Below are positions 29,401 through 32,400 of a stretch of 64,000 nt of DNA, in pieces. Source of the DNA: Brachyhypopomus gauderio (taxonomy: Eukaryota > Chordata > Actinopteri > Gymnotiformes > Hypopomidae); NCBI RefSeq assembly GCF_052324685.1, contig NC_135221.1, positions 66,001 to 130,000 on the forward strand. Direction: 5' to 3'. The notes under the pieces are model-generated. The model saw only the letters and a program-made list of their open reading frames with translations, was not told where the DNA came from and did not search any database. Numbering within the stretch: the first letter of the stretch is position 1; each line of letters begins with the position of its first letter. The translations under genes were made by a program, and so were the position numbers.

Positions 29401-32400
29401 CACAGTACCAGAACCACACAGTACCAGAACCACACGGTACCAGAACCACACGGTACCAGAACCACACAGTACCAGCATCACACAGTACCAGTACCACACG
29501 GTACCAGTACCACACAGTACCAGAACCACACAGTACCAGTGACACCAGTACCACACAGTACCAGAACCACACAGTACCAGTGACACCAGTACCATCACCA
29601 CACAGTACCAGTACCACACAGTACCATCACCACACAGTACCAGAACCACACAGTACCAGTACCACACAGTACCATCACCACACAGTACCAGTGACACCAG
29701 TACCACACAGTACCAGTACCACACAGTACCAGAACCACACAGTACCATCACCACACGGTACCAGTACCACACAGTACCAGAACAACACAGTACCATCACC
29801 ACACAGTACCAGAACCACACGGTACCAGAACCACACAGTACCATCACCACACGGTACCAGTACCACACAGTACCAGCACCACACGGTACCAGCACCACAC
29901 AGTACCAGAACCACACAGTACCAGAATCACACAGTACCAGTACCACACAGTACCAGTACCACACAGTACCATCACCACACAGTACCAACACCACACAGTA
30001 CCAGTACCACACAGTACCAGAACCACACAGTACCATCACCACACAGTACCAGTACCACACAGTACCAGAACCACACAGTACCAGAACCACAGGACACCAG
30101 TACCACACGACACCAGCCAGCGGCCGCCCTGGCTTCCTTCCTCTGTGTCCCTGATTGGTCCTGGATGCCTCCCTGTAGGGCCGCTCAGTTCCTCAGGAAG
30201 ATGGCGGATCCCCAGTCCATCCAGGAGTCCCAGAATCTCTCCATGTTCCTGGCCAACCACAACAGGATCACACAGGTGTGGACAACTTTCACATTCTCTG
30301 TTGTGTTGTGTTTGTTGACCCGTGAACCTTTGCCTTCTCCCTAAGACACGCAACATCTTACTGCTATCACTGCGTCTATTCTGACATGAAAAAATCATGA
30401 CGAATAAATCTGAACGTTCATAAATTTGTCACACACAGCCTTTGTGAGAAAATGGATACATGTGGAAGGGTGTTCTTCACAGTTCGTTCTCGTCTTTACA
30501 CTTCCAGCCGTCAGAGATGTTCTGATGAGGATGTGATTTCTCTTGAGAGTTTGCCCACACACTTGACCGCCAAGCCTTACAATGCATTAAGAAACAGCAC
30601 CATACTAAGTGTTCTGAAACATTAGATGCGTTTAGTCTAACTGTATTCATCAGAGTTAACAGTATAGGTATTGAGGTGTAAATAGTATAATGACACCAGA
30701 CATTAAAAAAGTAAACAAACCCTCTTACAAGCTGATATCAGAAGCAGAGGTGATCTGGGTGGTGTTCTTGCTGTATCACTGATGTGGGTGGTGTTCTTGC
30801 TGTATCACTGATGTGGGTGGTGTTCTTGCTGTATCACTGATGTGGGTGGTGTTCTTGCTGTATCACTGATGTGGGTGGTGTTCTTGCTGTATCACTGATC
30901 TGGGTGGTGTTCTTGCTGTATCACTGATGTGGGTGGTGTTCTTGCTGTATCACTGATCTGGGTGGTGTTCTTGCTGTATCACTGATGTGGGTGGTGTTCT
31001 TGCTGTATCACTGATCTGGGTGGTGTTCTTGCTGTATCACTGATCTGGGTGGTGTTCTTGCTGTATCACTGATCTGGGTGGTGTTCTTGCTGCAGTGTCT
31101 GCACCAGCAGCTGGAGGTGATTCCTGGCTATGAGGAGCTCCTCGCCGACATCGTCAACATCTGCGTGGACTACTACGAGAACAAGATGTACCTGACCCCC
31201 AGCGAGAAGCACATGTTGCTCAAGGTACCACCCACCCCGAGCCTCCACCCACCTCCACCCAGCACTGGCAGCGTAGCTCGGCTGCTCGCTGTTGTTGTCA
31301 GTTGTTGGTTTGCTTGTTTGTTTACATGCTCCTGACATTGACGGTTTCACCATGCAGGTCATGGGGTTTGGGCTTTATCTGATGGACGGAAATGTGAGTA
31401 ACATCTACAAACTGGATGCCAAGAAGAGGATCAACCTCAGCAAAATCGACAAGTTCTTCAAGGTGGGCTGAGCAGGCCTGGATGAGACCAGTCTGAGAGG
31501 GGGAGGAGTCACCATGTGCTAGCGTGCAGTGGTGGTGTGTGTTTGACATGAGCGTGTGTTTGTGTCTACAGCTTCAGGTGGTTCCGCTCTTTGGCGATAT
31601 GCAGATTGAGCTGTCGCGATACATCGAGACGAGTGCTCACTACGAGGAGAACAAATCAAAGTGAGATTAATAAATGTATTTGTGAAATACATCATGTATG
31701 TACATGTTAAAAGAAAAGCATAGTTCATGGTTATCTGTCCAAATGGGCCACATAGAGACAGATATGCTGTTGACCGTCCTTCGGCTTCTCTGTGTTTGAC
31801 TCGTTGGCCTAGCACCCTCACTGCTGTGATATAATCCCACTCTCTTTGCTGTGTTATAATCCCACTCTCACTGCTGTGATATAATCCCACTCTCACTGCT
31901 GTGATATAATCCCACTCTCACTGCTGTGTTATAATCCCACACTCATTGCTGTGATATAATCCCACCCTCACTGCTGTGATATAATCCCACTCTCACTGCT
32001 GTGATATAATCCCACCCTCACTGCTGTGTTATAATCCCACTCTCACTGCTGTGATATAATTCCACTCTCACTGCTGTGTTATAATCCCACTCTCACTGCT
32101 GTGATATAATTCCACTCTCACTGCTGTGTTATAATCCCACTCTCACTGCTGTGTTATAATCCCACACTCATTGCTGTGATATAATCCCACCCTCACTGCT
32201 GTGATATAATCCCACTCTCACTGCTGTGATATTATCCCATTCTCACTGCTGTGATATAATCCCACCCTCACTGCTGTGATATAATCCCACTCTCACTGCT
32301 GTGATATAATCCAACCCTCACTGCTGTGTTATAGTCCCACCCTCACTGTTGTGATATAATCCCACACTCATTGCTGTGATATAATCCCACTCTCACTTCT

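Follow-up and report, generated by a model that had tools for sequence, protein, structure and literature searches.

A glutamate codon at the CYFIP2 K/E editing site in the genome of Brachyhypopomus gauderio

The K320E editing site of mammalian CYFIP2 is traced to Levanon 2005, as cited in PMC3391646, and the human site is likewise given as K320E in PMC4053846. Editing in the mouse stands at 4% at e15 and reaches 75% by p21 (PMC3391646), and the mammalian editing inducer element is described as a conserved stem of 116 nt with 47 pairs, lying 138 nt 3' of the site (PMC5654063, Table 1). A screen of chicken embryos then recovered K320E editing in CYFIP2, as in mammals (Roux et al., 2015; PMC4449034). 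The same study, whose Discussion once states the direction of the change the wrong way round, reports that Glu is encoded without editing in all ray-finned fishes in Ensembl, and that Lys is encoded in the remaining species having CYFIP2 sequence.

The zebrafish editome of 2021 gives 11 sites shared with human, in gria2, gria3, gria4, cadps and cacna1d, and the string "cyfip" does not occur in its main text (PMC8096273). No cyfip2 among the human-shared zebrafish sites presented there is what a genomic Glu predicts, but its authors state that their pipeline may miss isolated recoding sites. Elsewhere, 17 conserved sites are described as being edited in zebrafish too (PMC4053846).

Here we describe cyfip2 in a window of 64,000 nucleotides from the genome of the gymnotiform fish Brachyhypopomus gauderio, in which the codon at this site is GAG. 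Compared with the edited site of mammals and chicken, the gene, the residue and the final Glu are the same, but Glu is here carried in the DNA, constant, and not made by ADAR. Compared with the ray-finned fishes in Ensembl, for which Roux et al. (2015, PMC4449034) report genomic Glu, the observation is the same one. It is not new: the ray-finned pattern has been in print since 2015 (PMC4449034), and this genome is a further example of it.

The cyfip2 gene and its K/E codon

The features on which the argument rests are the following.

26403..44812, plus strand: complete coding region of cyfip2 with its stop codon, 28 coding exons that encode 1252 aa
31572..31660, plus strand: coding exon 9 of cyfip2, with AG acceptor and GTGAGA donor
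31626..31628, plus strand: GAG (Glu) codon, residue 319, placed by the sequence, the gene model and the alignment to PDB 3p8c

Exons were located by tblastn with a working version of the human CYFIP2 sequence, and splice sites were placed by eye. The resulting model has GT-AG borders at all 27 introns and a single open frame of 1252 aa, and it is identical to this working human sequence in 1231 of 1253 columns, leaving 22 differences. In Pfam, the first 409 aa of the protein match FragX_IP (PF05994) with 53 bits against a cut-off of 23.3, and also CYRIA-B_Rac1-bd, the Rac1-binding CYRIA/B domain. The gene in the window is, on the strength of its sequence, an ordinary cyfip2, the orthologue of CYFIP2 in the FragX_IP family. 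The window sits in a contig of 24.8 Mb, within a genome of 797 Mb in 840 contigs, and when 31500-31700 was compared as DNA with the entire genome, the single match was the window itself, so that there is no second copy at such similarity.

The position of the site was established with human CYFIP1 as found in the PDB (3p8c), a reference that is independent of the working CYFIP2 sequence. In this alignment residue 319 of the fish protein, Glu, falls opposite Lys320 of CYFIP1, which corresponds to Lys320 of human CYFIP2, the K/E editing site. Exon 9 stops at 31660 and its final codon is completed across the intron; 31572-31661 translates as 30 residues, among which the flanks of Glu319, in a stretch of 13 residues, match human CYFIP1 in the PDB exactly. 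The original prediction had placed GAG at precisely this codon and had equated it with human K320 by allowing for one missing Gln upstream; both points hold, the second through a single alignment gap at Q301.

That missing residue shifts the numbering by one, and it could be argued from this that the alignment is misplaced, or that the gene is the cyfip1 paralogue, so that the residue would not be K320 of CYFIP2 at all. We consider this scarcely credible. The exact match of the flanks to CYFIP1 speaks against misalignment, and the first 409 aa agree with the working human CYFIP2 sequence in 404 of 410 columns and with human CYFIP1 (PDB 3p8c) in only 370 of 411, which argues that the protein is CYFIP2 and not CYFIP1.

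The first base of the codon, at 31626, is a G, so the adenosine of the CYFIP2 K/E site is absent. This leaves the K/E edit without a substrate, and Cyfip2 would always carry Glu, in line with the proposals that the edited state is hard-wired in this genome and that the site needs no editing, since no A stands in the first position of the codon. We put at about 0.93 the probability that the Glu codon is fixed in ray-finned fishes, with a Cyfip2 that is always Glu and a K/E site devoid of the adenosine. A single-base error of sequencing or assembly at 31626, the true codon being AAG, is very improbable, given that the published state of ray-finned fishes is Glu (PMC4449034) and that the rest of cyfip2 is intact, with its frame open.

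The exon 8/9 junction

31569..31571, plus strand: a single CAG serving as 3' splice acceptor, from the gene model and the alignment gap

The residue lacking upstream of the site falls at the border of two exons. The working human CYFIP2 sequence, like human CYFIP1, carries a Gln at the exon 8/9 junction. In the alignment to CYFIP1 (3p8c), human Q301 has no counterpart in the fish, the only gap being at that junction. The absence of Gln is real in the DNA, because only one CAG is present at the 3' splice site and it is consumed as the acceptor; an ancestral tandem pair of CAG acceptors may have been reduced to one. The sections of Roux et al. (2015, PMC4449034) dealing with the site make no mention of the one-residue gap seen here at exon 8/9.

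Of the 22 differences from the working human CYFIP2 sequence, 3 (the Q301 gap, A316S and K320E) fall in exon 9, within 31 of the 1253 columns. Such clustering has a probability of about 0.015 by chance, somewhat above expectation, and it includes A316S, a difference that depends on the residue given in the working human CYFIP2 sequence, although CYFIP1 also has Ala at 316.

Polarity of the Lys/Glu change

Human CYFIP1, the paralogue, has Lys320 (PDB 3p8c). Together with the Lys in the other CYFIP2 sequences considered by Roux et al. (2015; PMC4449034), this makes a single gain of Glu in ray-finned fishes the shortest history. Glu is thus likely to be derived in ray-finned fishes, a polarity that we hold with moderate confidence as it comes from few outgroups. 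At this position mammals and birds encode Lys, and ADAR2 converts part of the mRNA to Glu. In such a history, one A-to-G substitution in the ray-finned lineage would have fixed Glu in the DNA, and editing in the line of tetrapods would be a separate route to the same residue.

The opposite polarity, raised by the original prediction when it asked whether editing restores an ancestral residue, would have Glu as the ancestral state of bony vertebrates, a mutation to Lys in tetrapods, and editing as the restoration of Glu. The distribution of the final residue, encoded here and produced by editing in chicken and mammals, agrees with restorative editing. This history is not favoured, though, and we regard it as unlikely, since human CYFIP1 has Lys320 and the Lys of non-ray-finned CYFIP2 in Roux et al. 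(PMC4449034) demands an extra change. A classification of restorative sites has been published by Gabay et al. (2022, PMC8897444), but it uses a tree of primates only, to which mouse and cow serve as outgroups, and the CYFIP2 site is therefore not settled by that study.

The site offers a clean case of a residue that is fixed in the DNA of one lineage and made by RNA editing in another, and it can help to address the question of whether recoding is adaptive.

Intron 9, its repeats and the neighbouring genes

31744..31811, plus strand: possible 68-nt hairpin with 23 pairs within intron 9, beginning 118 nt 3' of the GAG codon
31813..33267, plus strand: 25-bp minisatellite of 58 copies, occupying most of intron 9 (31661-33276)

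A different order of events can be imagined, in which neuronal selection for Glu acted across bony vertebrates, editing came first and the residue was later fixed in the DNA of ray-finned fishes, the hairpin at 31744-31811 being a relic of the inducer stem. We find this quite doubtful. The stretch that contains the 23-pair hairpin (31740-31815) folds with a z of -2.10, 3 of 200 shuffles being as good, but it is the best of four stretches and was picked after looking, the other three giving z of -0.73, -0.91 and -0.66. At the distance of the mammalian stem (31765-31880) z is -0.91 and 34 of 200 shuffles are as good, shuffled sequence being the sole yardstick for these folds. The wider fold of 31463-31800 is ordinary (z -0.10, 45 of 100 shuffles as good).

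Counting pairs is of little help here: 31743-31862 reaches 35 pairs in 120 nt at z -1.37 and 31763-31882 reaches 33 at z -0.76, and other folding windows, among the roughly 40 of 85 listed, attain 40 pairs at ordinary z, which makes pair counts uninformative. In the same set of about 40 of 85, those on minisatellites form 19-29 pairs, at z between about -2.5 and -4.7. No inverted repeats of at least 14 bp were found in 31200-33300. The claim that the inducer stem is missing from intron 9 was considered and dropped, in view of the z of the 23-pair hairpin and of the uninformative pair counts.

The minisatellite of intron 9 has company. Nine arrays lie in cyfip2 introns 3, 5, 6, 9, 11, 19, 22 and 23 (27744-42647), hand-picked with a period of at least 10 and a score of at least 150, two of their ends coming from lower-scoring rows that overlap. 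Seven of the nine start or stop at most 15 bases from a splice site, a limit set after looking, whereas random placement in the same introns gives a mean of 1.9 and reached seven in none of 20000 trials. In intron 11 the repeat unit begins at the donor itself. Two further minisatellites lie outside the gene: one of 33 bp with 26 copies and 94% matches (18223-19087), and one of 16 bp with about 190 copies (10936-14216), which gives rise to long minus-strand open frames that are probably not genes.

The neighbouring genes were identified by Pfam, with matches in three of the seven long frames scanned.

6478-7281, minus strand: MED7, upstream of cyfip2 in the window
50569-51669, plus strand: Forkhead-domain protein
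59112-59717, plus strand: piece of a DHHC palmitoyltransferase

MED7 lies near CYFIP2 in the human genome as well.
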